Shown here in pieces: positions 864 through 16,664 of a stretch of DNA of 35,897 nucleotides. Source of the stretch: Candidatus Gastranaerophilales bacterium (GTDB lineage: Bacteria > Cyanobacteriota > Vampirovibrionia > Gastranaerophilales > Gastranaerophilaceae); assembly GCA_017467305.1 (NCBI GenBank), contig JAFTSM010000012.1:1-35897 (forward strand), read 5' to 3'. The position numbers were made by a program, and so were the translations under genes. Positions within the stretch are counted from its first letter, which is position 1; every line of letters starts with the position of its first letter. Below the pieces are notes generated by a model. It ran no database searches. It saw only the letters and a program-made list of their open reading frames with translations, and was not told the origin of the DNA.

Positions 864-878
864 TTTATTCTTTCTTAT

Positions 879-905
879 TGCCGTGTTTTTCACGGCATTT
901 TCTTT
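879..905 (+). terminator. intrinsic terminator after endolysin
   Basis: The 7-bp stem TGCCGTG/CACGGCA (879-885 and 891-897) with a five-T loop is followed by TTTTCTTT. It separates the endolysin from the structural genes. Confidence 0.75.
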
Positions 906-981
906 AAAACAATCTTAAATTATGCCACTGAATTATTCGGTATATAGCTTTTAATACAAATTTAATGGAAGGAGAAAAATT

Positions 982-1182
982 ATGTGCTTATCTGCAAAAG
1001 TTGAAAAGGTAAAAGAATCAGAAAAAATTAAATCGCCAACTAATGCTGATGCTTCATTACAAAAATCAACAGCTGAAAATAGAAGAATTGAAAGTGCTTT
1101 GGCTTCTGAAAATATTAGAACCTCAAACAATGGATTAGATGACGAAGTTTCTGTTTCTAAGAAAAAATTATTAGGGGAATAA
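982..1182 (+). CDS. small phage protein before the portal gene
   Basis: This is a 66-aa hydrophilic, Lys/Ser-rich protein with a strong ribosome binding site (GGAAGGAG) 6-7 bases before ATG. The C-terminal NNGLDDEVSVSKKKLLGE resembles the tail of short proteins found just upstream of portal genes in podoviruses (T7 gp7.3-like position), which are minor virion components. The stop codon is one base away from the portal ATG, and the portal's ribosome site (AGGGGAA) lies within its last codons, so the two are translationally coupled. The virion role is inferred from position and the tail motif only. Confidence 0.65.
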   Translation: MCLSAKVEKVKESEKIKSPTNADASLQKSTAENRRIESALASENIRTSNNGLDDEVSVSKKKLLGE

Positions 1183-1183
1183 T

Positions 1184-2839: not shown

Positions 2840-2858
2840 GAATTTGAAAGGGAAAAAT

Positions 2859-3449
2859 ATGTTTCAAAAAAATGAAAATCAAAATTTAGCCTTAGGTATG
2901 ACTGATTTTGAACAGATTACTGATGAAAAAATTGTGGATGCTATTCCTACAGATGAAGGTTACTTTGGAAAACCAGAACAATATGATTATTCTGATGTTC
3001 TACTTCCAACTAATTATGGTTATGACGAGGCTTTATTAAATGAATTTAATGAATTAGCTGCAAAGTATAATCTATCTCAAAAAAGTGCAAATGAATTAAT
3101 GTCTATGGCAGTGAAACTAACACAGCTTACAGATTCTAACATCTTAAAAGCTCAAGCAGAACAACATAGACAAACTGTTGAAAATTACAAACGCACATTA
3201 ATTAATGATAGCGAAATTGGTGGGGCTAATTTTGAAAAAACAATGAAAACTGCAAATGTTGCATATACACAATTTGCTGACGAAGAAGTCCAAAAATTAT
3301 TGCAAGAGACTGGTTTAAATTGTCACCCTCAAGTGGTGAAAATGTTCTATAACATAGGTCTTAAAATGCAAAATGATTATATTTATGGTGCAAATGCTGC
3401 TGCAGTTCAAAAAGAAAATAGGGAAGATATTCTTTTCCCTACTATGTAG
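2859..3449 (+). CDS. phage scaffold-like capsid assembly protein
   Basis: This is a 196-aa acidic, Gln/Asn-rich, largely helical protein between portal and capsid genes, the place of the scaffolding protein in podoviruses (T7 gp9, BPP-1 Bbp18). A segment at about 50-85 (LLNEFNELAAKYNLSQKSAN) follows the helix-plus-LSQ pattern seen in such scaffolds. I chose the ATG at 2859 because AAAGGG lies 6-7 bases upstream; an upstream in-frame GTG/TTG-type extension has no such site. It probably guides capsid assembly and is lost from the mature particle. The function is inferred from position and composition. Confidence 0.7.
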   Translation: MFQKNENQNLALGMTDFEQITDEKIVDAIPTDEGYFGKPEQYDYSDVLLPTNYGYDEALLNEFNELAAKYNLSQKSANELMSMAVKLTQLTDSNILKAQAEQHRQTVENYKRTLINDSEIGGANFEKTMKTANVAYTQFADEEVQKLLQETGLNCHPQVVKMFYNIGLKMQNDYIYGANAAAVQKENREDILFPTM

Positions 3450-3474
3450 TACAAAAAAATGAAAGGAAAATCAA

Positions 3475-4470
3475 ATGGCAACTTTAGGTGCTAATTATTT
3501 AACATTGGCAGATAGATTTAAAAGAACTGAAAATGGTAAAATCGCTGCTGAAATTATTGAAATGATGTCTGAAACAAATGAAGTTTTACAAGACGCTAAT
3601 GCTCTTCAATGTAATGATGGAACAAATCACATTACAACTATTAGAACTGGGCTTCCATCTGCTGTATTTAGAAATCTATATGGCTATGTACCTAGCTCTA
3701 AATCTACAACTGAACAAGTAAAAGATGTTACTGGCATGTTAGAAACATATTCTATTGTTGATGTTGATTTAGTTGATAAATCTGAAAATCCTAAATTATT
3801 TAGATTATCAGAATCTTCTGCATTTATTGAAGCAATGAACCAAAAACTTCAAGAAACAATCTTTTACGGTAGCATAAAAGAAAATGCTGCAGCTTTTGAT
3901 GGTTTAACTGCTAGATATGCTAAAAAATCAGCTGATACTAAGAAAATTGGTTCAAATATTATTGATGCTGGTGGAAAAGCTGATGATAATACTTCAATTT
4001 GGTTTGTAACTTGGGGGGATTTACATACTTCTTTATTATACCCTCAAGGTTCTCTTGCTGGTGTTCAACACAAAGATGACGGTGTATTAACTGAAACAAG
4101 CGCTACTGGTGGAAAAAGAAAAGTTTACCAAGACCATTACAAAATGGATGTTGGTTTATCAGTTCGTGATTGGCGTTCAACTTGCCGTATTGCAAACATT
4201 AGCATTGCAAACTTGGCGTCAACTTCTGCTGCTGATTTAGAAGAGCTTTTAAACAAGGCATATTACAAAATTAGAAGATTTGCTAAAACTGGTAAAACTT
4301 GTATCTATTGCAACTCTACTGTTCTTATGTATTTCGAAGCTCAATTAAAAGCTAAAACTAATGTTAACTTCACTATCAAGGAATATTTAAATGACAACAT
4401 TTTACATTACAAAAATATTCCAATCCGTGAATGTGAACAAATTACTTGTACAGAAGATTTAGTATCTTAG
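3475..4470 (+). CDS. phage major capsid protein
   Basis: This 331-aa protein should form the icosahedral shell. The pattern WGDLHTSLLYPQGSLAGVQ (near 178-196), followed by YQDHYKMDVGLSVRDWR (about 219-235) and RIANI, is characteristic of podovirus capsid proteins of the BPP-1-like group, which have an HK97-type fold. It begins MATLGANYLTLADRFKR, as is common in these proteins. It has a good ribosome site (AAAGGAAA) and lies directly ahead of the Bbp16-type cement gene, the same order as in Bordetella phage BPP-1. Five cysteines fall in the C-terminal third. Codon use matches a well-expressed gene. Confidence 0.9.
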   Translation: MATLGANYLTLADRFKRTENGKIAAEIIEMMSETNEVLQDANALQCNDGTNHITTIRTGLPSAVFRNLYGYVPSSKSTTEQVKDVTGMLETYSIVDVDLVDKSENPKLFRLSESSAFIEAMNQKLQETIFYGSIKENAAAFDGLTARYAKKSADTKKIGSNIIDAGGKADDNTSIWFVTWGDLHTSLLYPQGSLAGVQHKDDGVLTETSATGGKRKVYQDHYKMDVGLSVRDWRSTCRIANISIANLASTSAADLEELLNKAYYKIRRFAKTGKTCIYCNSTVLMYFEAQLKAKTNVNFTIKEYLNDNILHYKNIPIRECEQITCTEDLVS

Positions 4471-4486
4471 AAGAAAGGAAATAAAA

Positions 4487-4888
4487 ATGATATTAGATGA
4501 ACAAGGTTTATTTTCAAATAATCAAAAAATAACAGCAAGTGCTGAATCAGAAAATATTTTGGATTTAGGGAAAAGAGAAGTTTCTTTTGGTACACCTATT
4601 GAATTATTTATTCAAGTTTCTGAAGAATTTAATAATTTAACAGCTTTAGATATTAAAGTTCAAACTGCGACTGATGAAGAGTTTTCTGATCCAGTTGATT
4701 TGATTGAACAAACAATGACTCTTGATGAATTAGTAAAAGGTGCTGTTTCTTCTATTAAATTTTTACCAAAAGGTAATCTTGGTTATATGCGCTTATTTTA
4801 TACAGTTACTGGTTCTAATCCAACAACTGGCAAAATTTTAGCTGGGATTACTGCTGGTGCTCAAGAAAGTTTCCATAATATAGGTTAA
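4487..4888 (+). CDS. Bbp16-family capsid cement protein
   Basis: This 133-aa protein resembles the Bbp16 family of capsid cement proteins, which sit on the outside of the BPP-1 shell and stabilise it. It has the family-like start MILDEQGLFSNNQKITASAES, an ILDLG motif, an FIQVSEEF strand, a LPKGNLGYMRLFYTV segment and a terminal TTGKILAGITAG. The fold is a small beta jelly roll in the family. It follows the capsid gene by 16 bp with its own GAAAGGAA site and is ended by a strong terminator. Confidence 0.85.
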   Translation: MILDEQGLFSNNQKITASAESENILDLGKREVSFGTPIELFIQVSEEFNNLTALDIKVQTATDEEFSDPVDLIEQTMTLDELVKGAVSSIKFLPKGNLGYMRLFYTVTGSNPTTGKILAGITAGAQESFHNIG

Positions 4889-4914
4889 ACATATCCTCAT
4901 ACTTTTTAGTCTTT

Positions 4915-4950
4915 GAGTGTCCACTTATAAAGTGGGCACTCTTTCTTTAA
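4915..4950 (+). terminator. intrinsic terminator after capsid genes
   Basis: The stem GAGTGTCCACTT/AAGTGGGCACTC (4915-4926 with 4930-4941, one G-T pair) has a 3-base loop and is followed by a T-rich run. It splits the head genes from the tail genes. Confidence 0.85.
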
Positions 4951-4968
4951 ATCAAAAAAGGAGTAAAA

Positions 4969-5559
4969 ATGAATTACACAAAAGCAAAAATATTTAATAT
5001 TACATTGAAAAATTTAAGAGTAAGTGTTGGTATCCAAAGCTCTAATCAAACAGATAAAAATACAGTTGTTCTAAATGAATTTTATGAAGTGGCTAGAGAA
5101 CAAGTTCTTAAAGATTTTGATTGGAATTTCGCAAATTCTTATAGAGAATTAACTCTTACTGGTAATATTCCACAAAATCCAAAATTTTTATATGAATATG
5201 ATTATCCAAATGATTGTGTGTTCGCTCGTGAAATTATTCCATATGTAGATAGTGATTTAGTTGAGTTTGAAATAGCTTCAAATGCAACTGGGCAAAAGGT
5301 AATTAATTCTAACCAAACTCCAGCTGTTTTGCGTTACACAAAATTAGTAGAAAATGAAACATTTTATTCCACAGAATTTGTTATGGCGCTCTGTTGGTAT
5401 CTTGCATTTCTCGCTGCACCGGCAATTACCGGAAATCGTGCAATACAAAGTGATTGTATGAGTGTTTACACAAATATTCTTGCAAAATCAAAAGTGATGA
5501 ATGCCTCTGAAGGTTTTATCAAAGATACATCTACTTGCTCTTGGTTAGATGCAAGATAG
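4969..5559 (+). CDS. phage tail tubular protein A (T7 gp11-like)
   Basis: This 196-aa protein fits the tail tubular protein A family, a gatekeeper ring joining portal and nozzle. Supporting features are EFYEVAREQVLKDFDWNFA (about 37-55), the YEYDYPNDCVFAREI segment (about 71-85) and the Tyr-rich LRYTK followed by ALCWYLAFLAAPAITG near 138-153. Length is typical. A clear AAAGGAG site precedes ATG. It is followed 8 bp later by tail tubular protein B, the conserved order in T7-like and BPP-1-like phages. Confidence 0.87.
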   Translation: MNYTKAKIFNITLKNLRVSVGIQSSNQTDKNTVVLNEFYEVAREQVLKDFDWNFANSYRELTLTGNIPQNPKFLYEYDYPNDCVFAREIIPYVDSDLVEFEIASNATGQKVINSNQTPAVLRYTKLVENETFYSTEFVMALCWYLAFLAAPAITGNRAIQSDCMSVYTNILAKSKVMNASEGFIKDTSTCSWLDAR

Positions 5560-5567
5560 GAGATTTT

Positions 5568-7613
5568 ATGACTAGATATACACAAAAATCTTTTACTGGT
5601 GGAGAATTAAGTCCAGCTTTATATTCTAGAAATGATTTAGCAAAGTATGTTATTGGGTTAAAAACTTTAAAAAATGGGTTTGTTAGAGCAGAAGGTTGCG
5701 TTAGTAATAGAACGGGGCTTGAGTTCATTTGTGAGGTTAAAGATTCTTCTACATCTGTTAGGTTGCTTCCGTTTTCTTTTAATACTGAACAAACATATAT
5801 TATCGAACTTGGAAATAATTATGCTAGGTTTGTTAAAAATGCTGGTCAGATTAAAAGTGATGATGCTCCAGTTGAAATTGAAACTCCGTTTTTAGAAAAA
5901 GATTTATTTAACATAAAATATGCACAAAATGCTGATGTTTTAACTTTGTGTCATAATGAATATTCTCCTTATGAACTCTCTAGAGAATCACATTATGTCT
6001 GGAAATTAGAAACAATTGAGTTTAATCCTAAAATTTCTGCACCTCAAATTACTAATATAACGTGGAAAGGTGGTTCAGAAGAAAAAACCACATACAATTA
6101 TATTGTAACGGCTGTAATGAAAGATTCTTATGAAGAAAGTAATTCTTCAAATATTATGAGTGTTGAAGGTGAAGTTGAATCATATTGGGGTGTTTCTGAC
6201 TATATTAAATTGGAGTTTACTGCTGTTGAAAATGCCATAGAATACAATGTTTATAAAAGTGTAAATGGTATTTATGGCTACATTGGAACAACATCTGATA
6301 CTACTTTTACTGATGACAAAATAGAACCTGATATGACATCTACTGCACCAATTTATACTAACCCATTTAAAGATGGAAATAATCCATCGTGCGTAAATTA
6401 TTTCCAACAACGTAAAGTGTATGCTTGTTTAAAGAATAATCCTCAGCAAGTTGTTACATCTCAAACCTCAACAAATAATAACTTTAATATTTCTAGACCC
6501 TTAAAAACAACTGATAGTATAAACATAACTCTATCAGAACGTGAGGTTAACGAAATTAGACATATTATTGCAATGAATGACTTGATTTTACTAACTTCTG
6601 GCGCTGAATGGAAATTGAATGGTTCTGATGGTGCTTTTACTGCTTCTTCTTCATTGGTTGCTACTCCTCAGAGTTATTATGGTTGTTCGCACGTTCAACC
6701 AGTTGTATCTGGTAATATGATTTTATTTGTTCAATCTGGTGGTAGTGTTGTAAGAGATTTGGGCTATACCTATGTTTCTGATAGTTATGACGGAGAAGAA
6801 CTTTCTATTTTCGCAAATCATTTGTTTGAGGGGAAGCAAGTTATTGATATGGCTTATTCAAAAGAACCTTATAGGATTCTTTGGTGTGTTATGTCTGATG
6901 GAACGCTCAATGCTTTGACTTACAACAAAAAGCAAGAAGTTATTGGTTGGCACAAGCACGAAACAAAAGGAAACTTTGAAACAGTGGCCGTAATTAGAGA
7001 AAATTTTGAAGATGTTCCTTATTTTGTTGTTAAACGTGAGATAAATGGACAAACTAAACGCTACATTGAACGCTTGGCATCTCGCTACATTGAAAAAACT
7101 CAAGATGGAATATTTTTAGATAGTTCTCTTTGCTATGAAGGTGAACCTATAAAAACAATTAAAGGGCTTGAACATTTAGAGGGTGAAACTATAAATCTTT
7201 TAGTCGACGGTTGTGTAGTAGTTGACAAATTGGTAAAAGACGGAACTATTGAACTAGATTATCCTGTTTCAAAAATAGTTGCGGGTTTACCCTATGAATT
7301 TGAACTGGAAACTTTGAATTTAGAAGGAGAGAATACTCAAGGTCTTACCAAAATAGTTAATTCTATTAATGTAATGGTTGATAAATCTAGGGAAGATTTT
7401 TTTGTTATAGGAACAAATGGAGATGTTGTTCAAAATTCTAGAAGTATGAAAAGTATAAATGACCCTAATTATTTACATTCTGGAAATGTTGAACTATATT
7501 CTTTCTCTGACTATTCTGACTGTGCAAATGTGCATATAAAACAAATATATCCATTTCCTTTAACTGTAAATTCTATATCCTTGGATGTAACGGTGGCTGA
7601 TAAAAATGCTTAA
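5568..7613 (+). CDS. phage tail tubular protein B / nozzle (T7 gp12-like)
   Basis: This 681-aa protein begins with TQKSFTGGELSPALYSRNDLAKY, the signature start of podovirus nozzle proteins that carry the fibres and form the distal tail tube. Later segments such as YAQNADVLTLCHNEYSPYEL (about 124-143) and MNDLILLTSGAEWKLNG (about 340-356) also match the family. The ATG at 5568 is preferred because GGAG lies 7 bases upstream; a TTG-led extension inside the previous gene lacks a site. The last 8 bases overlap the next gene, implying coupled translation. Confidence 0.9.
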   Translation: MTRYTQKSFTGGELSPALYSRNDLAKYVIGLKTLKNGFVRAEGCVSNRTGLEFICEVKDSSTSVRLLPFSFNTEQTYIIELGNNYARFVKNAGQIKSDDAPVEIETPFLEKDLFNIKYAQNADVLTLCHNEYSPYELSRESHYVWKLETIEFNPKISAPQITNITWKGGSEEKTTYNYIVTAVMKDSYEESNSSNIMSVEGEVESYWGVSDYIKLEFTAVENAIEYNVYKSVNGIYGYIGTTSDTTFTDDKIEPDMTSTAPIYTNPFKDGNNPSCVNYFQQRKVYACLKNNPQQVVTSQTSTNNNFNISRPLKTTDSINITLSEREVNEIRHIIAMNDLILLTSGAEWKLNGSDGAFTASSSLVATPQSYYGCSHVQPVVSGNMILFVQSGGSVVRDLGYTYVSDSYDGEELSIFANHLFEGKQVIDMAYSKEPYRILWCVMSDGTLNALTYNKKQEVIGWHKHETKGNFETVAVIRENFEDVPYFVVKREINGQTKRYIERLASRYIEKTQDGIFLDSSLCYEGEPIKTIKGLEHLEGETINLLVDGCVVVDKLVKDGTIELDYPVSKIVAGLPYEFELETLNLEGENTQGLTKIVNSINVMVDKSREDFFVIGTNGDVVQNSRSMKSINDPNYLHSGNVELYSFSDYSDCANVHIKQIYPFPLTVNSISLDVTVADKNA

Positions 7614-8085
7614 AAAGTCTAATGATATATTAATTGTGCATCAAATTTTAAAAAATATACGTGATGAAGATAAACAAGAATTAATGGCGTTATTTTCTGA
7701 GGAATGGTATTTGAAAACTATTGAAAGTTTTAAAAATAAAGAATTTCTTGTTCTTTATGGATTTGATGATAAAAAATTGAAAGTTCCAATAGCGATTGGT
7801 GGTATTGATGAAGTTATTGATAAACATAATCGTGTTGCTAGTGTTTGGTTTCTATCCACAAAATGGATTAAAAATAATAAAAGATTATTATTTTCTACTT
7901 TAAAAAATCAAATTTTATTAGCAGAAAAGGATTATGATATCCTTTTTAATTTTATTTATAAATCAAATTTGAAGTTAAAAAGTTGGCTTGAAAAATTGGG
8001 ATTTGTTTTTGGTGATACTTTTTTAAAAGAGTTTCCTCCTAAAAAGGGATTTGAGTTCTTTTATAAATTTATAGAAAGGAATTAG
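7606..8085 (+). CDS. GNAT-like phage protein (T7 gp13-like)
   Basis: This 159-aa protein has the layout of GNAT-fold proteins: an N-terminal strand-helix pair, a central FLVLYGFDD...VPIAIGGIDEV strand region (about 47-71), RVASVWFLST (about 76-85) and the closing SWLEKLGFVFGD (about 128-139). In T7-like phages such a protein (gp13, DUF2833) lies right after the nozzle gene and assists assembly of the internal core. Catalytic activity cannot be judged; the family member in T7 is structural. Its start overlaps the end of the nozzle gene. Confidence 0.68.
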   Translation: MLKKSNDILIVHQILKNIRDEDKQELMALFSEEWYLKTIESFKNKEFLVLYGFDDKKLKVPIAIGGIDEVIDKHNRVASVWFLSTKWIKNNKRLLFSTLKNQILLAEKDYDILFNFIYKSNLKLKSWLEKLGFVFGDTFLKEFPPKKGFEFFYKFIERN

Positions 8086-8095
8086 GTGTACGACA

Positions 8096-8581
8096 ATGGA
8101 CGCTTGGGATATTTTCAATGTTGTTATAAAAGTTGTACAAGCAGCTTTTCAAGTTAAAAAAGCTGTTGAAGTGAGAAAAGAAGCAAAATATCAGACTGAT
8201 ATACTTCGACAAGAAGCTAAACAAGCAAAAGAAGATGCTGCGGATGAAAGACAACAAGGGTTGGATGAAGCTAGAAGAATACGTTTAAAATCAATTTTGA
8301 ATATGAGTGAAATGAAATCAGATATTGCTTCTAACAATATATTATTATCTTCAAAAACGGCCTTAAATCTTGTTACAGATGAAAAATTAAATGGCGAGCT
8401 AGATGCATTAGTTACCCTTCAAAATTCAGAACGAACTGCAGAAAATTATCTTCGACAATCTCAAAAATACTACCAAAATGCTGCACTAAAATCTGCAAGT
8501 AGTAAAAATAATTTGGTAAATTCTGTCTCAAATTCAGTCTTGAATCTTTCTTCAAATATATTGAAAATAGCCCAAAAATAG
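8096..8581 (+). CDS. phage internal virion protein (T7 gp14-like)
   Basis: This 161-aa protein has a hydrophobic helix at about 4-22 followed by a long charged helix (about 23-65: KKAVEVRKEAKYQTD...), then RLKSILNMSEMKSDIASNNI (about 63-82) and a Ser/Asn-rich helical tail. Position after the gp13-like gene and the helix-then-coiled-coil form match internal ejection proteins, which leave the head to build a DNA channel through the host envelope. Sequence resemblance to T7 gp14 is weak, so the assignment rests on order and architecture. Confidence 0.62.
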   Translation: MDAWDIFNVVIKVVQAAFQVKKAVEVRKEAKYQTDILRQEAKQAKEDAADERQQGLDEARRIRLKSILNMSEMKSDIASNNILLSSKTALNLVTDEKLNGELDALVTLQNSERTAENYLRQSQKYYQNAALKSASSKNNLVNSVSNSVLNLSSNILKIAQK

Positions 8582-8596
8582 AGAGAGGAATAATTT

Positions 8597-9979
8597 ATGT
8601 TAAATATGCAAAATAAAAAGGATAATACTTTTTCATTGAGAAAAATTCCTATATCAAAAAAAGATACTCATAATTTGGATATTTCTGTTGAAGATTTTGA
8701 TAAAGTAAAAATACTTGAATTATCTAATCTTATTGATAAATGGGAAGAAGAATTATTGTTCTCGAAGGATGGATTTTATTCAATTAAGGGGAAAAATATA
8801 GAAGATAAAATGAAAGAGTTTATAAAAGAATTGGACTCTTTTATTTTAAAGCAAATATCTTTGATGAAGTTTCAAAATGAAGAATCAAAGAAAATTGCAT
8901 TGGAAATAAAAAGGAATAAAGTTCTTGCTATTAAAAATGAAATGCAAAAATATGAACAAGAACAGCTAAAGGAATGGCAATTAAATGTATTTGAAGATTC
9001 ACTTTCTTCTGCAATTTCTAGGGCTGTTTTGTACAAGTCTAATGAACAAATTATTCTCTCGTCATTTAAAAATGCTCACGATGTGATAAGGCTTATTTCT
9101 CAAAAGGAAAAATGGGACAATAAAACTTACAAGGCAAAAATGGAAGAATTTAATTCTAGATTTTATTACTATTTAATTTCTGAATTTATACAAGATAAAG
9201 ATTCTAAGGCTGTATCTTATTTTGATAAGTTCAAAGATTTTTTATTGAAAGATGAAAAGGAAAATTTAGAAAAAAATCTAAAAGAATTTAAGGTAAATGT
9301 AATAGGATTCAATTTTGCTAAGGAGTTATTCTCATATAAGTTATCTGACGTAGAACAAGAAAAAGAACTGAGAGCAATTAAGGATGAAGAAATAAAAAAT
9401 GCTGTTAAAAAGTTTCTTTCTGAATTTATTAGTTCTGACAAAAAGCAAAAAATAGAAGATGAAAAGAAAAAAAATCTTGAAAATTGGCAAGAAATTATAG
9501 ATATTGTTGAACAAGATATTGATAAAGCATATCTTTATATTGATTATAGTTTGTCAAATGCTTCTATAAATGCTAAAAAACACTATATTTCTTCTATGAA
9601 AAAATATAAGTGCATCGTTACTGATAAAAAGAAATTTATTGATTTAATTACTGAGCTTTTTGAAGATTTTATTGCTTTTAAACAAAAAGATATATCTGAT
9701 TTTCAAGCATCTTTTTCCAAAGAAGATTATAACCTTTTATTAAATTTTCAAAACTTGAGTATTCAAGAATTTGAGAAAATAAATATTGATTACAAATATT
9801 TATTTTCCCAAACAAAGGATATTAATTTTAAAAAACAAGATGATAAATATGATTTTATCAAATTAATATTCTCATCTTTCTCTGAATACAAGAAAAACAA
9901 CAAAAAAGAAGCTGATTTAAAAGCGAGAAACGAAATAATCGATTTGATATTAAACAGATTTAAAGAAAATAAAAAATAA
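8597..9979 (+). CDS. coiled-coil phage protein, possible internal core protein
   Basis: This 460-aa protein is very rich in Lys and Glu and almost entirely helical, with no signal peptide or membrane span and no recognisable enzyme motif. Its place between the gp14-like protein and the fibre gene is where T7 has its large ejection proteins gp15 and gp16, but at 460 aa it is far shorter than either. It could be a reduced ejection protein or a lineage-specific core component. GAGAGGAA precedes the ATG. Function not recognised. Confidence 0.6.
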   Translation: MLNMQNKKDNTFSLRKIPISKKDTHNLDISVEDFDKVKILELSNLIDKWEEELLFSKDGFYSIKGKNIEDKMKEFIKELDSFILKQISLMKFQNEESKKIALEIKRNKVLAIKNEMQKYEQEQLKEWQLNVFEDSLSSAISRAVLYKSNEQIILSSFKNAHDVIRLISQKEKWDNKTYKAKMEEFNSRFYYYLISEFIQDKDSKAVSYFDKFKDFLLKDEKENLEKNLKEFKVNVIGFNFAKELFSYKLSDVEQEKELRAIKDEEIKNAVKKFLSEFISSDKKQKIEDEKKKNLENWQEIIDIVEQDIDKAYLYIDYSLSNASINAKKHYISSMKKYKCIVTDKKKFIDLITELFEDFIAFKQKDISDFQASFSKEDYNLLLNFQNLSIQEFEKINIDYKYLFSQTKDINFKKQDDKYDFIKLIFSSFSEYKKNNKKEADLKARNEIIDLILNRFKENKK

Positions 9980-9989
9980 GGAGTTAGGA

Positions 9990-12578
9990 ATGACAGTTTC
10001 ATCAATTGTGCCCGTAAATAATCATACGGGTAATTCTTCTACTAAAATTTTTGATTTTGATTTTTTGATAGAAAATGAATCAGAATTAGTTGTACATCAT
10101 ATTGATGCAAATGGAATAGTTTCAATTTTGGAAAATGGTGTTGATTATTCTATTGCAGAAGTGGGGAATAAAAATGGTTCTTATATTACATTTCCTCTTG
10201 ATTCTTCTAAATATAATGTTCTAGATTTTAAAGAATATCTTTCTTTATATCTTGATTTACAAATAAAACAAGAAAGTGAATTTCACAATTCATCATATTT
10301 TAACTTGGAAATTTTGGAATGGACTTTTGATTATATAGTTAGAATTCTCCAAATTTTAAATAGAAAAGTCGAACGTTGTATTAAAGTTGAAGAAACAGCT
10401 GAGGTAAAACCAGAACAACTTATATCTGATTTATATGATACAAGAAAAGAAGTTCAATCTTCTTATGAAAGTATTATTGATTTATCTAATGAAGTTAAGG
10501 CAAATTTAGATGTTGTTGAAGAAAAGGCTGAATTAACATCTGAACAACTTGAACTGGCTAAAAACGAAGTATTACTTGCAAAAGAAGAAGTTGAAAGAGC
10601 GAAAGAACAAGTTAAAATTGCAACTCAAAAGGCAAGAGATGCTGCAAGTATACCTATTGGTTCAATAGTTGCTTTGGCTTCATCAAGTAAATATGTACCA
10701 GAAGGATATCTACTTGCTGACGGTACGGAATACTCTAAGTCGCAATTTAAAGATTTATATAACAACTATTTGACTGGTGGTGTTTCAACAAATATCGAAG
10801 AAACTTGGCAAGAAAATACTGGATATTACTATAAAAATTGGAACTCTTTTGCCTATGGTAGTAGTAAATATGTTTTAGTTGGTAATGACGGATATATTTC
10901 AACTTCAGATGATGGTGTAACTTGGAATTCAGCAACTGTTCCAGGTGGTACAGCGAATAAGCTAGATGTAGCTTATGGAAACGGTTGTTTTATAGCAACT
11001 TCTTATGGTAGTGTTTATTTCCTTCTTTCTATGGACGGTGGAAATACTTGGCAAAACACTGCTGTAGGCAATGCTAGCTACAATAAAATGTGGCAAAAAA
11101 TCGCCTTTGGAAACGGACGTTTTGTTGCAATCTCTTTAACAGGTGATGCTGTAAGTACAACAGCCACAACTATTAATTGGCAAGGTGTATTAAGTTGGGC
11201 TGGTGATGTAATGAATTGGCGTAGTCTTGCCTTTGGTAATGGTATATTTGTCGCTGTTTCCGACGGTGGTTATGTATCTACTACTGTAGACGGATTAATT
11301 TGGTCTACTCCGACACTAATACATGAAGCTGGATTTAATTGTATTAATTTCGATGATGTTAACAATAGATTTATTATTAATACTGATGATGATTTAATAA
11401 TATCTACAATAGATGGTTTGAAATTTGAAACAATTGGTACAATTCCGGTTACTGGTGCATTAAATAGTAACTTTATAATTGGTGCTGGTAAAGCAATTGC
11501 TATTCAAACTGGTTCTGGTACAGTTTATGAAACAACAGATTTTAATACTTGGACTTCGACATTAATAACAGATAGTGCTTCATTGGGTAATTGGCTTTTA
11601 GGTTATGATGATAAAAGGTTTTTTATTTTTTCTAATTCTAGTATAAGTACAGCACTTGCATTTTCAAAAACTTGTTATGTTAAAACTATAACTTTATTGA
11701 ATACTTGTACATACGCAGAATATGAAACAGAAATAGCAACCTATGGACAATGTGCTAAGTTTGCTGTTGATACTGATAATTTGATATTTAGAGTTCCATT
11801 AATTAAAGACACAGAAACAGATGTATCTAATAATATTGATTATGATAATGGAACTGAAATTACAAGTTGTCCACTGGAAACAACACCATTCACTGCAACA
11901 TCTGATGGTGTTTTAGTCCTTACATTATGGCAAAACGGAAATGCTACATCTTATTGTTATATAAACGGGATTCAACGTACTTTATATCATGATGGCGAGG
12001 CAACAAATGTTCCCGAAACTTATTATATACCTTTAAGCAAAGATGATGTTTTGTATTGGAGTTCAAGTAGAACATTATATAACTCCTATTTCTATCCATA
12101 CAAAGAAGAAACAACTGACAAACCATTTAAATCTTTTGTTGTTGTAGCTAACGGTCAAACAAACCAAAGTTTAATGGACTGGAGTGCGTGGGCTAGTAGT
12201 TTACAAGGTAGGCTTGATACAAGCGTTACAAATATAACTGGTGATGGTAAAGCAAATATAACAGATATGCTTAGTCCAGATTATTCTGCTGGTGTTGAAA
12301 AAGTGTGGGGTGAAACTTATACTGCAGAAGTAAGTGGATGGTTGTATTATGCTATACGTATTGCAATAACGGCATCAACTACTATTGATGATTATACTTG
12401 TTTATGGATTGATGAAGTACCAGTTGGTGTTGGTGGTGGTCAAAAAAGCACTTCAAGTTCTGCAAATAGCGGATTAGTTAAAATTGGTAAAGGTTCAACG
12501 TATAGAACAGCCACACCAAGTAGTACTAGTTACGATGCACAATGTATAAGATTTTATCCAGATAAAGGAGTTAACTAA
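9990..12578 (+). CDS. tail fibre with collar domain and beta-propeller-like repeats
   Basis: This 862-aa protein is the likely receptor-binding fibre. Residues 1-140 resemble the N-terminal tail-attachment domain of T7 gp17-like fibres (FDFDFLIENESELVVHHID). Residues about 145-220 form a heptad coiled coil. A phage tail collar domain starts at about 222 (PIGSIVALASSSKYVPEGYL, then LADGTEYSKSQFKDLY). It seems interrupted at about 268-565 by repeats of the pattern AFGNG-x-FVAVS...S-DG-x-TW, like Asp-box/beta-propeller units. Collar-like sequence resumes at about 570 (YAEYETEIATYGQ). Two similar C-terminal beta domains follow (about 640-720 and 770-862), probably receptor-binding. The start has an AAGGAG site. 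Its stop overlaps the next ATG. Confidence 0.85.
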   Translation: MTVSSIVPVNNHTGNSSTKIFDFDFLIENESELVVHHIDANGIVSILENGVDYSIAEVGNKNGSYITFPLDSSKYNVLDFKEYLSLYLDLQIKQESEFHNSSYFNLEILEWTFDYIVRILQILNRKVERCIKVEETAEVKPEQLISDLYDTRKEVQSSYESIIDLSNEVKANLDVVEEKAELTSEQLELAKNEVLLAKEEVERAKEQVKIATQKARDAASIPIGSIVALASSSKYVPEGYLLADGTEYSKSQFKDLYNNYLTGGVSTNIEETWQENTGYYYKNWNSFAYGSSKYVLVGNDGYISTSDDGVTWNSATVPGGTANKLDVAYGNGCFIATSYGSVYFLLSMDGGNTWQNTAVGNASYNKMWQKIAFGNGRFVAISLTGDAVSTTATTINWQGVLSWAGDVMNWRSLAFGNGIFVAVSDGGYVSTTVDGLIWSTPTLIHEAGFNCINFDDVNNRFIINTDDDLIISTIDGLKFETIGTIPVTGALNSNFIIGAGKAIAIQTGSGTVYETTDFNTWTSTLITDSASLGNWLLGYDDKRFFIFSNSSISTALAFSKTCYVKTITLLNTCTYAEYETEIATYGQCAKFAVDTDNLIFRVPLIKDTETDVSNNIDYDNGTEITSCPLETTPFTATSDGVLVLTLWQNGNATSYCYINGIQRTLYHDGEATNVPETYYIPLSKDDVLYWSSSRTLYNSYFYPYKEETTDKPFKSFVVVANGQTNQSLMDWSAWASSLQGRLDTSVTNITGDGKANITDMLSPDYSAGVEKVWGETYTAEVSGWLYYAIRIAITASTTIDDYTCLWIDEVPVGVGGGQKSTSSSANSGLVKIGKGSTYRTATPSSTSYDAQCIRFYPDKGVN

Positions 12579-13111
12579 TGATTAAATATGCAAAAGTAGT
12601 AAACAAACAAACTGGACTTGTTGAAGCTGGAATGGGGAATAATACTCAATTTTATCAATCAATAGGAATGGTTCAACTAGATGTTCAACAATCTGATGTT
12701 GATAATAAATGGTATTTAACAGAAAAATGCCCTATGAAATCAGAAGAAGAAAAAGAGAAAGAAGAACAAGAACGTATTGCAATGCTATCTCTAACTTCTG
12801 CAGATGTTGAACGTGGTATTTATAAAGCAACTGGAATGGATTTTGATGACATTATTGCAAAGGTTCAAAGTCTTTGCGATTCTTCGACTGAGCCTCAGAA
12901 TGACAAAGGTGTCATTCTGAACGATAGCGAAGTATCACAAGGGCTGAATATTGACATAAAAGCCTTAAAGATAGAGTTAAAAGCAAACAACTTCTATCGT
13001 GGAAATGCTTATGTTGACTCAATAGGAACGTTATTGGGTTTTACTAAAGAACAGTTAGACGAGTTCTTCAAAACTGGTGATTATACAAAACTTTTGAAAG
13101 TTGAAGATTAA
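12578..13111 (+). CDS. fibre-associated phage protein with REP insertion
   Basis: This 177-aa acidic protein starts in a TAATG overlap with the fibre stop codon, suggesting a fibre chaperone or accessory. A Glu/Lys-rich helix (about 52-68) is followed by LTSADVERGIYKATGMDFDDIIAKV (read as a helix pair, about 74-98), then a low-complexity insertion encoded by a REP-like palindrome (about 100-123), then a compact C-terminal domain with IDIKALKIELKANNFYRGN and LGFTKEQLDEFF. The frame is kept across the insertion. Similar two-part proteins are common in gut phages, but I know no assigned biochemical function. Confidence 0.7.
   Translation: MIKYAKVVNKQTGLVEAGMGNNTQFYQSIGMVQLDVQQSDVDNKWYLTEKCPMKSEEEKEKEEQERIAMLSLTSADVERGIYKATGMDFDDIIAKVQSLCDSSTEPQNDKGVILNDSEVSQGLNIDIKALKIELKANNFYRGNAYVDSIGTLLGFTKEQLDEFFKTGDYTKLLKVED
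12878..12940. repeat. REP-like palindrome inserted in a coding region
   Basis: The segment contains perfect 11-bp arms TCAGAATGACA (12895-12905) and TGTCATTCTGA (12910-12920) around AAGG, and flanking CTTCG/CGAAG with GAT/ATC ends. This is the familiar GTCATTCTGA...CGAAG...ATC intergenic repeat type seen in many bacterial genomes. Here it lies in frame within a phage gene and adds about 22 residues to the protein. Confidence 0.72.
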
Positions 13112-13113
13112 TT

Positions 13114-13596
13114 ATGAAAGAAAAAATAATAAGTGTTTCTTTTTCCCAAATACCTAATGTCCGAGTAAGGGTTATAGATGCAGATGATATCCTAGAATTA
13201 AAAAAGAACAAGAAAAAATATCCTTTTGAACTTCAAAATTCTGTTGATGTTTTAATTGTAACTACTAAACGAAATTTTTCCTTTACTATTTATAACGGAT
13301 ACACTTGGAACGGGGCTGATATACCCCGTTTCTTTTGGAGAATTATTGGGTCTAGAACTGATAACGATTTTTTGATTGCTTCTATGTTACATGATTATTT
13401 ACTTGAATTTAAATCATATGTAATTAGTGAAATCTTGAAAAATCAAATTAAGAAAAAAGAGTATAGAAGGTTAACATCTTTGATTTTTAGGCACATTATA
13501 AAAGAACAAGGTACAAATACAATTAAAGCGAATGTTATGTCTTGGTGTGTAGATGTTTTTCAGATGTTTAATTGGAAGGCTTGGAAAAGTTGCTGA
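13114..13596 (+). CDS. DUF1353 family phage protein
   Basis: This 160-aa protein carries the DUF1353 hallmark GYTWNGADIPRFFWRIIG (about 65-82) followed by DFLIASMLHDYLLEF (about 87-101), where the His-Asp pair is conserved. DUF1353 genes are found in phage lysis or tail-end regions and are often next to holin genes; a metal-dependent peptidase-like role has been suggested for the family but is not established. The stop codon overlaps the ATG of the next gene (TGATG), a sign of translational coupling with the putative lysis protein. Confidence 0.85.
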   Translation: MKEKIISVSFSQIPNVRVRVIDADDILELKKNKKKYPFELQNSVDVLIVTTKRNFSFTIYNGYTWNGADIPRFFWRIIGSRTDNDFLIASMLHDYLLEFKSYVISEILKNQIKKKEYRRLTSLIFRHIIKEQGTNTIKANVMSWCVDVFQMFNWKAWKSC

Positions 13597-13805
13597 TGAA
13601 TGAATTTTATTTGTTATTGGTGATAAATATTATTTCTGCAAGTATTGCAATTGGAAGTTATACCAAAACTCTAAAATATATTGAAGATCATATAAAACGC
13701 CTAGAAGATAAGCAAGATAAACACAACTGTCTGATTGAAAGAATGGTTGCTGTTGAACAATCAACAAAATCCGCACATCATCGTATAGATGAATTACTTT
13801 CTTAA
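13596..13805 (+). CDS. small membrane-anchored coiled-coil protein, holin/XhlA-like
   Basis: This 69-aa protein has one N-terminal membrane segment (about 4-22, LLLVINIISASIAIGSY) followed by a charged heptad-like helix ending RMVAVEQSTKSAHHRIDELL. That form is like XhlA-type phage lysis accessory proteins, which work with a holin and endolysin. I use the ATG in the TGATG overlap with the DUF1353 gene; a TTG extension is possible. The stop is shared with the converging repressor gene: TTAA at 13802-13805 supplies stop codons to both strands. Confidence 0.6.
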   Translation: MNEFYLLLVINIISASIAIGSYTKTLKYIEDHIKRLEDKQDKHNCLIERMVAVEQSTKSAHHRIDELLS

Positions 13806-14107
13806 TGGATTATTCTATAAACTATGTTAATGATTTCTTCAGGTTGTGAACTTATTTGTGTTTGTATTTCTTTTATTTTTTCTTCTTTTGTTTTTAAGTG
13901 TTTATAATCAAAGAATATATTTAGATCATAATTGAGACTAGAAGCAATTTTTTCTATTGTTGGAAATGCAGGGTAATGCCTACCACTTTCTATTGCACTT
14001 AAAGAACAAGTTTCAATGTCTATCATTTCTGCAAGTTTCTCTTGTGTTAAATTTCTGTTTTTTCTTAACTCTTTTATTCTTTTACCTAGTAATTTTTTAT
14101 TATCCAT
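13802..14107 (-). CDS. XRE-family helix-turn-helix repressor
   Basis: This 101-aa protein has an N-terminal XRE/Cro-type DNA-binding domain: LGKRIKELRKNRNLTQEKLAEM, then IETCSLSAIESGRHYPAFPTIEKIA, ending about residue 65. A charged C-terminal helix (about 70-101) is likely for dimerisation. The ATG at 14107 has AAGGAT 6-7 bases upstream, while the longer frame to 14197 has a hydrophobic N-terminus and no site. The gene is divergent from the ATP-grasp gene, and two GTGT/ACAC dyads lie in the 166-bp gap, so it probably represses that promoter and perhaps itself. It may be the prophage repressor or a regulator of the cargo pair. Confidence 0.82.
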   Translation of the reverse strand: MDNKKLLGKRIKELRKNRNLTQEKLAEMIDIETCSLSAIESGRHYPAFPTIEKIASSLNYDLNIFFDYKHLKTKEEKIKEIQTQISSQPEEIINIVYRIIH

Positions 14108-14188
14108 TAAAACATCCTTAACAACTATACTAAGCAATAAAACAAAGAAATATAAGTGTCTGTTGGATATGTTTTTGGATAAAAGTAA

Positions 14189-14197
14189 GTGTAACAC
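14189..14197. promoter_or_regulatory. operator candidate 1 (GTGT-A-ACAC)
   Basis: GTGTAACAC is a short dyad 14 bases upstream of the -35 box of the ATP-grasp promoter and 82 bases before the repressor start. It shares GTGT/ACAC half-sites with the second site at 14241-14251. It is likely bound by the adjacent XRE protein. Confidence 0.45.
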
Positions 14198-14210
14198 ACA
14201 TACTAATATA

Positions 14211-14238
14211 TTTACAAAGCTGTGTTTTTATGTATAAT
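14211..14238 (+). promoter_or_regulatory. promoter of the ATP-grasp/peptide operon
   Basis: TTTACA (14211-14216), a 16-base spacer and a perfect TATAAT (14233-14238) form a strong sigma-70-type promoter. The expected transcription start is near 14245, inside operator candidate 2, so repressor binding would block it. The ATG follows about 30 bases later with AAAGGAA as ribosome site. Confidence 0.7.
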
Positions 14239-14240
14239 AT

Positions 14241-14251
14241 GTGTTATACAC
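14241..14251. promoter_or_regulatory. operator candidate 2 (GTGT-TAT-ACAC)
   Basis: GTGTTATACAC lies immediately after the -10 box and covers the predicted transcription start of the ATP-grasp gene. Same half-sites as the dyad at 14189-14197; the two centres are about 53 bases apart (five helical turns), which would suit cooperative binding. Confidence 0.5.
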
Positions 14252-14273
14252 ATAGTTTTGAAAGGAATAGTAT

Positions 14274-15188
14274 ATGTTAGATTTTTTTTTTAAACATGGT
14301 ATTAGTAAAGAAGACATTCCTTCACCTCCTTATGATTATGATTTTTTATTGAATTTAACTCCTGAGAAATATCCTTTATATCTGGAAAAAATTTTTTATT
14401 ATCAAATGGGGAAAAAGCTTAATTTGTCTCATCCAAAAACATTTAATGAAAAAATACAATGGCTTAAGTTATATGATAATATTCCATTAAAAAGAAATTT
14501 AACCGACAAAATATTGGTTAGAGATTGGATTCGAAAACAAATTGGTGAAGAATATTTAAAACCTATTCTGTTAGTATGCAAAACATTTGACGAGATAGAT
14601 TTTTCTTCTTTACCTAATAAATTTATCATTAAGACAAATCATGGTAGTAAGTGGAATTATAAAATCAAAAATAAAGAACAGTTTTTATCTGAAAAAAGAT
14701 TGGTTCAAATGGTTAGAGATAATTTTAATTCTTGGCTTAATGTCAGTTTTTTCCCTTGGGTGGGCTTTGAAATGCAATATAAAGGTATTGAGCCTAAAAT
14801 ACTTATTGAAGAATTATTAATAGACGATGAACCTTTAATAGAATATGAAATATATTGTTTTAATGGACAACCACAACTTTATCAAAAAGTTATATACTCA
14901 CATCCTGTGGAATGCTGTGTATATGAAAAAGATTTTTCCATAAGTGATATTTGCTTTAATACTGGATACAGAAAAAATACTGAAGTTGCAGATAGTATTC
15001 TTAAAGAAGCTGTAGAACTGTCTAGAACTTTGGCAAAAGATTTTAAGTTAGTTCGTGTTGATTGGTTGCGACATGATAACAAATTGTATTTTAACGAAAT
15101 GACTTTTACTCCTTTTTCTGGTTTCTTTAAGTTCTCAGATGAAAGTCATAATCTTCGTTTGGGAAAAATGTTGGATTTAAAAAAATAG
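14274..15188 (+). CDS. TupA-like ATP-grasp protein
   Basis: This 304-aa protein matches the TupA-like ATP-grasp family, named for a teichuronopeptide biosynthesis protein and found in polysaccharide and phage cargo loci. ATP-grasp enzymes join a carboxylate to an amine using ATP. Landmarks are the family-typical HPKTFNEKIQWLKLYD near 52-67, the nucleotide-binding strand KFIIKTNHGS (about 116-125), ILIEELLID with YEIYCFNGQPQLY (about 176-203), and the metal-binding end RVDWLRHDNKLYFNEMTFTP (about 259-278). It is expected to be cytosolic. It has a strong operator-flanked promoter and is followed 11 bp later by a small Cys-containing peptide gene. It could modify a cell-surface polymer or the small peptide; the sequence does not decide which. 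Confidence 0.85.
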   Translation: MLDFFFKHGISKEDIPSPPYDYDFLLNLTPEKYPLYLEKIFYYQMGKKLNLSHPKTFNEKIQWLKLYDNIPLKRNLTDKILVRDWIRKQIGEEYLKPILLVCKTFDEIDFSSLPNKFIIKTNHGSKWNYKIKNKEQFLSEKRLVQMVRDNFNSWLNVSFFPWVGFEMQYKGIEPKILIEELLIDDEPLIEYEIYCFNGQPQLYQKVIYSHPVECCVYEKDFSISDICFNTGYRKNTEVADSILKEAVELSRTLAKDFKLVRVDWLRHDNKLYFNEMTFTPFSGFFKFSDESHNLRLGKMLDLKK

Positions 15189-15199
15189 GAGGTATTAAC

Positions 15200-15361
15200 A
15201 TGGAACAAGATGAAATATTTTCTCAAAAAGAACTCTTAGATTCATACAGTGACATCATAGAAGGTGATTCTTATTTGGTTGCGTCGGATTGTAAAGGCGC
15301 CGCCCCAGTATGTAGAAAATATGTGGCTGGACAGTGTGTCCAGTGGGATATGTGTAACTAA
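15200..15361 (+). CDS. 53-aa peptide with acidic leader-like half and four-Cys C-terminus
   Basis: An ATG with an excellent ribosome site (AGGAGGT, spacing 6-7) opens a 53-codon frame right after the ATP-grasp gene and ends exactly at the terminator. Residues 1-30 are acidic and leader-like (MEQDEIFSQKELLD...). Residues 31-52 hold four cysteines spaced C-X6-C-X7-C-X5-C (Cys31, 38, 46, 52), with Trp49, Tyr41 and a final Asn53. There is no signal peptide or membrane span. The codons for the C-terminal part are visibly richer in G and C than the surroundings and include a 7-bp hairpin (CTGGACA/TGTCCAG, 15327-15343). The layout resembles a precursor peptide with its tailoring enzyme, or a small metal-binding protein. 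Function not recognised. Confidence 0.68.
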   Translation: MEQDEIFSQKELLDSYSDIIEGDSYLVASDCKGAAPVCRKYVAGQCVQWDMCN

Positions 15362-15365
15362 AAAA

Positions 15366-15394
15366 GAGCTCTCAATTGAGAGCTCTTTTTTTTT
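15366..15394. terminator. bidirectional terminator
   Basis: GAGCTCTC-AATT-GAGAGCTC forms a perfect 8-bp stem with A-tract before and nine Ts after. It ends the ATP-grasp/peptide operon on the plus strand and can end lysC on the minus strand. Confidence 0.92.
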
Positions 15395-15407
15395 ATGTTT
15401 ATTCTCT

Positions 15408-16664
15408 TTATACGTCTGGTAAATCACCTTTAACATCAGCTGTTTCTGTTGTTTCTAATCCAAATTCTTTACAAAGAGATTTTATTGCATCGTTAGCATT
15501 TTTCTTTTCAACAAGACAACTAATTTTGATTTCACTAGTAGATATCATTTTAATGTTTATATTCTTTTCTGCTAAAGAACGGAACATGTCAGCAGCAATA
15601 CCAGGACGGTCAACCATACCAGCACCAACGATTGAAACTTTAGCTATATCATCATCTGTTAAAATTTCAGCAGCTTGTATAGTTTCTTTTTCGGATTTTA
15701 AAATGTTCATTGCATCTTCTAAATCATCAGCAGCGATAGTAAACGCAATAGAGTTTGTTCCATTATTTGCTAATGATTGGATAATCATATCAACGCTTAT
15801 ATTATTTTTTGCTAATGCACCAAACAATTTAGCAGCAGTACCAGGAATATCTGGAAGGTTTGATAGTAAAATTCTAACTTGTGAAGAATCAGCAGCAACG
15901 CCTGCGACTGGTTTATATATTTCCATGTTTTCAACTCCTATAATTAAAGTACCCATATTTTCTAATTTGAATGAACTTCTAACACGCAATGGAACGCTAA
16001 ATTGTTTTGCTGTTTCAACAGCACGTGGATGAAGAACATTTGCACCTAGACTTGCTAGTTCTAACATTTCTTCGTATGAAATAATATCTGTTCTTTGAAT
16101 GTTTGGAACAATTCTTGGATCTGTTGCATAAACACCTTCAACGTCTGTATAAATATCACATCTATCAGCTTTTAAAGCAGCAGCAATAGCAACTGCTGAC
16201 GTATCTGAACCGCCACGACCAAGTGTTGTAATTTCTCCATCTGGTGTAACGCCTTGAAAACCAGCAACTACGATAATATTCCCGTCTTTTAATTTTTGTT
16301 GTAGTTTTTCTGTTTTTATATCAACAATTCTTGCCTTAGAGTGAATACATTCAGTAACAATACCTACTTGTTGACCGTTCATACTAATTGCTTTGTGTCC
16401 TTGTGATTGAATAGCCATAGCTAATAAAGCAATAGAAACTTGTTCACCAGTAGATAATAACATATCCATTTCTCTGGAGTTTGGTGTATTTGTTACTTCT
16501 TTTGCTAGTTTGATTAAATGGTCTGTAGTGTGTCCCATTGCTGATACTACAACTACTACGTCATTACCATTTAACTTTTCTCTGATAACGGCTTTTGCAA
16601 CGTTATGGATTTTTTGTGGATCGGCTACAGATGTGCCCCCAAATTTTTGTACAATGATTCCCAC
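15408..16664 (-). CDS. lysC: aspartate kinase
   Basis: This 418-aa protein phosphorylates aspartate, the first step to lysine, threonine and methionine and to diaminopimelate for the cell wall. It starts with the kinase signature VQKFGGTSV (Lys7), has FQGVTPDGEITTLGRGGSDTSA (read as two parts around 135-156) for nucleotide and substrate binding, and carries two ACT domains in the C-terminal third (about 265-335 and 345-405), usual for feedback control by lysine and/or threonine. Length is normal for the monofunctional type. The start is GTG with AAAGGA, which also forms the last codons of the upstream TPR gene only 4 bp away. It is third in a kdsC-TPR-lysC operon. Confidence 0.96.
   Translation of the reverse strand: MGIIVQKFGGTSVADPQKIHNVAKAVIREKLNGNDVVVVVSAMGHTTDHLIKLAKEVTNTPNSREMDMLLSTGEQVSIALLAMAIQSQGHKAISMNGQQVGIVTECIHSKARIVDIKTEKLQQKLKDGNIIVVAGFQGVTPDGEITTLGRGGSDTSAVAIAAALKADRCDIYTDVEGVYATDPRIVPNIQRTDIISYEEMLELASLGANVLHPRAVETAKQFSVPLRVRSSFKLENMGTLIIGVENMEIYKPVAGVAADSSQVRILLSNLPDIPGTAAKLFGALAKNNISVDMIIQSLANNGTNSIAFTIAADDLEDAMNILKSEKETIQAAEILTDDDIAKVSIVGAGMVDRPGIAADMFRSLAEKNINIKMISTSEIKISCLVEKKNANDAIKSLCKEFGLETTETADVKGDLPDV

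Follow-up and report, generated by a model that had tools for sequence, protein, structure and literature searches.

An ATP-grasp gene of the TupA type and the 53-codon gene behind it appear to form a minimal unit for a ribosomally synthesized and post-translationally modified peptide (RiPP), a reading to which we assign a probability of about 0.8. The pair lies in a stretch of 35,897 nucleotides from Candidatus Gastranaerophilales (positions 1 to 35,897 of contig JAFTSM010000012.1), referred to here as the window. The short gene would encode a 53-amino-acid precursor, and the TupA-like ligase would act as its leader-guided maturase. A precursor peptide with its modifying ligase had been suggested in a preliminary description of this DNA, and this suggestion is strongly supported by the recurrent pairing of the two genes, the restriction of the pairing to one enzyme clade, and the co-divergence of leader and enzyme. 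Judged from their sequences, the many small ligase and peptide units of this one cyanobacteria-related gut genus resemble a family of enzyme-modified peptides that has yet to be described.

The window unit comprised the following features:

13802..14197, minus strand: XRE/Cro-type HTH regulator gene (HTH_19, E = 5.3e-15; likely ATG start at 14107)
14189..14199, no strand: palindrome GTGTAACACAC, candidate operator (motif GTGTNNNACAC)
14211..14238, plus strand: candidate sigma-70-like promoter of the TupA-peptide operon, TTTACA-16-TATAAT (consensus match only)
14238..14254, no strand: 17-bp palindrome TATGTGT-TAT-ACACATA, candidate operator at the promoter (core 14241-14251)
14274..15188, plus strand: gene of the TupA-like ATP-grasp ligase, 304 amino acids (PF14305 match)
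15188..15192, plus strand: GGAGG, ribosome-binding site for the peptide gene (overlaps the stop codon of TupA)
15200..15361, plus strand: putative precursor peptide gene, 53 amino acids (homologue in G251; match to leader profile A4)
15200..15268, plus strand: leader segment, about codons 1-23 (from the leader consensus; approximate boundary)
15269..15358, plus strand: core segment, C-X6-C-X7-C-X5-C (four cysteines; hypervariable across the family)
15360..15391, plus strand: predicted intrinsic terminator (14 pairs and a T tail; perfect 16-nt inverted repeat)

The gene arrangement of the preliminary description was recovered throughout. The TupA gene ends at 15188 and the peptide reading frame starts at 15200, which leaves the described gap of 11 bp; the ribosome site of the peptide gene was found as GGAGG at its junction with the TupA stop; the first half of the peptide is acidic as stated; and the cysteines C31, C38, C46, and C52 have the spacing that was given. 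The terminator said to begin at the peptide stop corresponds to the hairpin at 15360-15391, the only terminator-like one between 13500 and 15600, where shuffled sequences gave an expectation of 0.5, and the RNA of this region had a fold z of -4.65. The window enzyme scored 106 bits (E = 2.9e-30) with the Pfam family ATPgrasp_TupA (PF14305), above the curated cut-off of 25 for membership, and this was the sole Pfam family that it matched. The HTH gene is divergent from the TupA gene and forms the left-hand limit of the unit. The promoter-like site between them agrees with the consensus at 11 of 12 positions and ranked highest among 14 such sites in 13500-15600, a number no greater than chance given the 13.3 expected. 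The palindrome GTGTNNNACAC occurred three times in the window against 0.21 expected from shuffles. Two of these copies (14189-14199 and 14238-14254) are located at the TupA-peptide promoter, and from their sequence and position they are candidate operators of the divergent HTH regulator.

No family for the 53-amino-acid peptide was found in Pfam or NCBIfam. When it was searched alone against 288 genomes of the taxonomic family, one clear relative was identified, in G251 (E = 5.9e-12), and all other matches had E-values of 0.125 or worse. The G251 relative shares 57% identity over residues 8-53 and the same cysteine spacing. It is likewise encoded directly behind a TupA gene, accompanied by a divergent HTH gene, and the gene beside this unit is one that we take to be priA. 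The window peptide also matched leader profile A4 with an E-value of 9.8e-5, being itself one of the 58 rows of that profile.

A scan of a genome collection with three TupAs of the window type gave 484 loci, from which the best 80 were kept. Records of Candidatus Gastranaerophilales contributed 66 of these best 80. The loci L062 and L083 came from records assigned to Clostridia and Bacilli, respectively; these contigs are 3-4 kb long and may be misbinned. Behind most of the closer TupAs in the best 80 loci was an open reading frame for a peptide of 48-164 amino acids with a similar front. Because an inspection of only the reading frames behind TupA would bias the pairing, a position-blind profile was grown from the window peptide by sequence alone and applied to all 5,229 reading frames of at least 30 amino acids in the window and the 80 loci (829,558 bases; threshold E ≤ 1e-3). 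The search returned 56 family members, including the window's own, 52 of which start between -60 and +100 bp from the stop of a TupA gene on the same strand. Homologues of the peptide thus recur beside TupA genes, as the preliminary description would lead one to expect. Since homologous peptides recur behind homologous enzymes and the G251 spacing is kept, the pairing of enzyme and peptide is more than chance. A RiPP system is recognized by a precursor with a gene-encoded conserved leader and a variable core, and by a candidate modifying enzyme encoded with it; the former was found in this family, and the latter directly upstream in the 52 cases above.

In a genome-wide count outside G142 and G295, 53 of the 80 members among the matches listed had a listed TupA directly upstream. 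Another 19 of these 80 listed members had no listed TupA directly upstream and no plus-strand contig start within 700 bp. Several of the 19 are at contig ends, and one (G185:C1, identical to L082) is in fact beside a TupA. Others look like orphans, such as the one in L017, where positions 1414-2078 hold a leader-family peptide gene and a divergent HTH gene with no TupA alongside. In several short loci, including L209, L224, L225, L237, L251, and L255, the draft contig often stops beside a leader-family gene at the place expected for TupA, a pattern that could arise if the assemblies were interrupted by nearly identical copies. Long reading frames with about three tandem leader-like segments before a core-like end were seen in G273, at L124 (245-910) and L170 (1153-1845, minus strand).

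A tree of the enzymes was constructed with FastTree from 156 trimmed TupA sequences, which were reduced to 95 different ones by merging identical sequences, and it was rooted on six TupAs from viral contigs. A leader-family reading frame was found behind 53 of the 95 TupAs, and all 53 were located inside one clade of 64 (SH-like support 100). No such frame followed any of the 31 TupAs outside the clade, indicating that the association follows the enzyme lineage. A divergent HTH gene was present within 400 bp of 20 of the 57 clade TupAs with at least 500 bp of upstream sequence available, against one of 28 outside. For the 11 clade TupAs with no scored leader-family frame behind them, three are near contig ends (L046, L052, and L081), three are followed by a similar peptide with a score too low (L062, L084, and L086), one has its peptide 1.7 kb away (L051), and one retains only a remnant (L057); no leader-family frame was seen behind the TupAs of L050, L058, and L087.

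Directly behind the clade TupAs were frames for peptides, and some loci had radical SAM genes there (three annotated). An enzyme that clusters only with glycosyltransferases, a pattern named in the preliminary description as counting against its proposal, was not seen in these adjoining frames. The peptide-paired TupAs form a clade apart from the others, and a glycosyltransferase neighbor was noted for one TupA of the latter group. This one is the outgroup L097, just outside the clade, with a neighbor of the GT2 family, and similar reading frames follow other TupAs there. A viral origin was also considered and rejected. A scan of IMG/VR yielded six distant TupAs of 29-38% identity, none with a leader-family frame behind it, and no PHROGs family matched the TupA or the peptide at E ≤ 0.01. 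These six viral TupAs fall outside the clade by construction, as they served as the root. The window's genome itself has further TupAs outside the clade. Those of L006 (258-2423) and L007 (149-2247) are accompanied by unrelated short reading frames and a radical SAM gene, and that of L003 (898-3660) by unrelated short frames and a PurD-like second ATP-grasp gene; these are possibly further peptide systems linked to TupA.

The peptides were divided by profile into a leader, taken as the first 25 or so residues, and a core. In total, 150 unique peptides were collected, and two that scored worse than E = 1e-3 were dropped, leaving 148 cores; 93 of the peptides were fetched later, among which L008 and L017 had already been seen. 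Asp and Glu together made up 31% of the leader, and 56 leaders contained a single Cys between them. In the core, Cys occurred at 6.5 times its frequency in long reading frames of these loci, and Trp, Gly, and Tyr were also abundant. Among 53 enzyme-peptide pairs, the distances between TupAs followed those between leaders (Mantel r = 0.48, permutation p = 0.001), while their correlation with core distances was slight (r = 0.07, p = 0.027). Core identity was 0.25-0.27, with 0.36 in the closest class, compared to 0.23 for shuffled cores.

The transition from leader to core was also visible in the DNA. Thirty-three pairs could be aligned with an identity of at least 80% across the end of the enzyme gene and the leader, and four of them were set aside as two reading frames of one locus. 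In 26 of the remaining 29 alignments (80-100% in enzyme-end and leader DNA), which are not independent and come from few groups, the similarity stops between -30 and +27 bp from the leader/core junction, and the other three continue through the core. For example, two loci of one draft genome, L039 and L041, share 668 identical bases up to a break 7 bp before the junction, beyond which they are unrelated (97.3% over 988 bases in all). The similarity returns behind the peptide gene in some pairs, such as L061/L065, L064/L230, and L039/L045. The abrupt loss of similarity at the junction in these close pairs points to an exchange of cores as cassettes, and the picture is one of units that would diversify by replacing the core at the leader/core junction.

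Cysteine counts in the cores were predominantly even. In the initial set of 56, each of the 39 cores that had at least four Cys showed an even count; the later-fetched 93 peptides gave 73 of 77, and the full set of 148 cores, not all of which are independent, gave 111 of 115. For nine other residues, the counts were even in 48 to 66% (for example, Gly 49/103, Tyr 49/99, and Ser 63/95). Odd or low Cys counts occurred mainly in short cores, several of which have a radical SAM gene behind them. The even counts point to cysteines paired as disulfides, and by extension to an oxidizing place of action, and they argue against a single modification of each Cys. Conservation of the cysteines, the lack of which the preliminary description had named as counting against its proposal, applies to the parity of their number and to their spacing in the nearest relative, G251; it does not apply to their positions across the family, because the cores are unrelated.

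The genomic location of the window unit was compared among relatives. The window contains phage head and tail genes up to 13805, followed by HTH, TupA, peptide, and lysC. The lysC gene was found in 41 of the 42 genomes of the genus, and TupA with the peptide at two of the 30 lysC sites read, those of the window and G297. In G297 the order is the same, with phage genes (34-38% identical), HTH (64%), TupA (59%), peptide, and lysC. The phage genes directly adjoin lysC in G251 and G284, where the unit is absent, and G231 has neither phage genes nor the unit at lysC. The G298 contig breaks off immediately after a family member that adjoins lysC. The proposal of cargo at a prophage edge is thus borne out for the window: since the window and G297 have the unit between phage genes and lysC and G251 and G284 lack it there, the HTH, TupA, and peptide genes look like one insert, which would have entered at the edge of a prophage common at the lysC site. 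The G251 unit of the same kind is located elsewhere, so the unit is not bound to this site. We regard the window HTH-TupA-peptide arrangement as a compact cassette with its own regulator, placed at the edge of a prophage and of a type that also occurs elsewhere. Many of the 30 genomes read (window 411-15408 and L300-L329) have, in convergent orientation to lysC, reading frames similar to the window phage gene at 13114-13596, and the gap that adjoins lysC seems to be a cargo spot, as with the radical SAM-like frame in L314.

At E ≤ 1e-3, the leader profile identified members in 23 of the 42 genomes of the window's genus, with the highest numbers in G142 (57) and G295 (40). As G142 is 98% complete with 1% contamination, strain mixing is not a ready explanation for its 57 members. 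PF14305 was present in 35 of the 42 genomes, with at least 50 matches in G142 and at least 52 in G295. Across the phylum, four of 386 genomes had members, all in the window's genus (one of 142 genera), and none of the 141 other sampled genera had any at E ≤ 1e-3. A four-row profile, A2, matched 48 of the 288 family genomes at E ≤ 0.1, of which 40 belong to other genera (best E-value 0.0012). The matches in other genera were presumed to be chance, most being in long reading frames or crossing stops.

The following sequence of steps is inferred for the maturation. The enzyme would bind the leader of the precursor, use ATP to convert a carboxylate into an acyl phosphate, and from this create an amide on the peptide. 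Pairing of the cysteines as disulfides and removal of the leader would follow. Residues K120, E179, and D263 are invariant and E275 is nearly so among 57 enzymes of the clade and outgroup, and we presume that these four have the usual ATP-grasp catalytic roles. Structure searches recovered the general ATP-grasp fold only. The fold neighbors include the graspetide synthetase PsnB, with and without its precursor (E about 2e-6, TM about 0.4), and ArgX bound to LysW, and graspetide synthetases were not among the best 50 entries of a second structure search. A read-through fusion model of L045 had a good enzyme portion, with leader and core unplaced (block means 29-45). A C39 peptidase domain was present in 12 of the 42 genomes of the genus; G185, G251, and the window's genome, which is 89% complete, showed none.

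The bond that the enzyme makes is the least certain part of the proposal. We tentatively favor, at somewhat less than even odds, a ligation that couples an amino acid or other small amine-bearing molecule to a carboxylate of the peptide, most likely the C-terminal one. This is ranked above a macrocycle within the peptide, which in turn is ranked above the transfer of an external carboxylate onto a peptide amine. The last residue was Lys in 37 of 147 cores of at least 10 amino acids, compared to 4.7 expected, and most of these cores are otherwise unrelated; this C-terminal bias may have another cause.

A graspetide-like macrocycle, in which a core Asp or Glu side chain is linked to Lys, Ser, or Thr (or Cys) of the same peptide, seems rather unlikely. 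The presence of PsnB among the fold neighbors speaks for it, cores rich in Cys and Gly would suit constrained products, and 138 of the 148 cores have an Asp or Glu after the second residue. However, the remaining 10, the core of L040 among them, have none, so that a side-chain carboxylate is not always available, and past the leader only the Cys columns are well conserved, with no conserved pairs of Thr, Ser, or Lys with Asp or Glu as expected of graspetides. The enzyme also had no NCBIfam family at E ≤ 1. A Lys residue was present in 54 of the first 56 cores, a count reached by none of 2,000 shuffles, and in 135 of all 148, reached by none of 1,000 unstratified shuffles (0.02 for the 93 new ones). 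Most of this excess faded when shuffles were stratified by length (0.115, 0.05, 0.044, and 0.629 in the four classes), which weakens a Lys requirement of the macrocycle, and Lys was dropped as a universal acceptor.

The same result bears on the reverse conjugation, in which an external carboxylate, from an amino acid or a surface-glycan glucuronate, would be attached to an amine of the peptide, which would thereby become capped or tethered. A known TupA-like domain activates glucuronate, according to passages in PMC11800379, and just outside the clade L097 has its GT2 neighbor, with similar reading frames behind other TupAs there. On the other hand, the frames directly behind the clade TupAs are peptides and some radical SAM genes, and the presence of Lys is at most marginally above length-stratified chance, which leaves the N-terminus as the only constant acceptor, and the N-terminus belongs to the leader. 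We consider this conjugation improbable.

An unmodified disulfide-rich or metal-binding peptide, with TupA a mere neighbor that has another job (e.g., immunity or a surface change), would fit the even Cys counts without any other modification and the seeming orphans such as L017, but it is very unlikely, because leader and enzyme diverge together while the cores hardly follow, the pairing is confined to one TupA clade, and a leader that is constant across unrelated cores needs a constant partner, which among the neighbors tested is the enzyme, the HTH gene accompanying only 20 of 57.

If the reading of the pair as a RiPP precursor with its TupA-like maturase is correct, an enzyme family of surface polysaccharides enters the chemistry of peptide natural products. 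It would also provide a natural set of 148 unique precursors in which the leader is shared while the core changes, and the system invites tests of how tolerant the ligase is, which bond it makes, and how bacteria swap cores. The little-studied Gastranaerophilales of the gut would gain a candidate arsenal for competition or host contact. A more far-reaching proposal, which is speculative and which we hold as possible, is that of a novel class of ribosomal peptides made by TupA-like ligases: a modular diversification system in which ligase and leader stay constant and the core is an exchangeable cassette, its dispersed members reaching 57 or more in a single genome, and whose products would be disulfide-paired miniproteins with the C-terminus joined to an amine by capsule-type chemistry.

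Among known systems, graspetides such as microviridin (MdnB/MdnC) and plesiocin (PsnB) likewise have an enzyme of the ATP-grasp fold beside a short precursor with a leader and a variable core. The window enzyme, in contrast, belongs to ATPgrasp_TupA and shares the fold only. No PDB chain, PsnB included, had a sequence match to it at E ≤ 0.1, and neither Pfam, NCBIfam, nor PDB placed it in the graspetide-synthetase branch; the cores here are moreover Cys-rich with even counts. The main text of a graspetide survey (PMC8939145) names none of TupA, Melainabacteria, or Gastranaerophil. Candidate RiPP families whose ATP-grasp enzymes differ from the microviridin and pheganomycin ones were put forward in the decRiPPter genome-mining study (PMC7794033), the main text of which mentions no TupA, Melainabacteria, or Gastranaerophil. 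The main text of a study that mines one Melainabacteria genome (PMC8600333) names neither TupA nor ATP-grasp. In the open-access papers searched, nothing was found on TupA-like ATP-grasp enzymes in RiPPs. Papers with both TupA and ATP-grasp concerned only a giant virus and capsule glycosyltransferases, none gave the Pfam name or accession, and nothing on point was found for RiPPs, precursor peptides, or gene clusters of Gastranaerophilales or Melainabacteria.

ArgX and LysX also act on a protein substrate, LysW, which is a constant metabolic carrier, and the window enzyme had no sequence match to any of these in PDB at the threshold above. In radical SAM-modified RiPPs, the closest parallel is offered by L059, L060, and L061, where a radical SAM gene (PF04055) follows the peptide and the cores contain 1, 4, and 1 Cys, respectively, whereas the window unit and many others have no radical SAM gene. 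The TupA of Bacillus halodurans is a TupA-like ligase of surface polymers, and compared with such ligases the recurring neighbor here is a small peptide gene, not a glycosyltransferase. In Campylobacter, the C-terminal TupA-like domain of Cj1438 amidates a polymer-borne carboxylate with ethanolamine-P or serinol-P, as described in passages of PMC11800379. It is the same kind of domain as the window enzyme, and the carboxylate activation and amide formation proposed here are the chemistry reported for Cj1438 in that source.

The diversity of the cores resembles that of the prochlorosins and other combinatorial RiPPs of picocyanobacteria. A conserved leader, a hypervariable Cys-rich core, and many precursors per genome characterize the prochlorosins, which are served by one shared lanthionine synthetase. 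The family described here has the same leader and core pattern and the same multiplicity, but a member often has its own TupA directly upstream (the 53 of 80 among the matches listed, outside G142 and G295), and the core changes abruptly at the junction. RiPPs and ATP-grasp maturases are both known; as far as tested, a maturase from a TupA clade that acts with exchangeable, disulfide-type cores is new.
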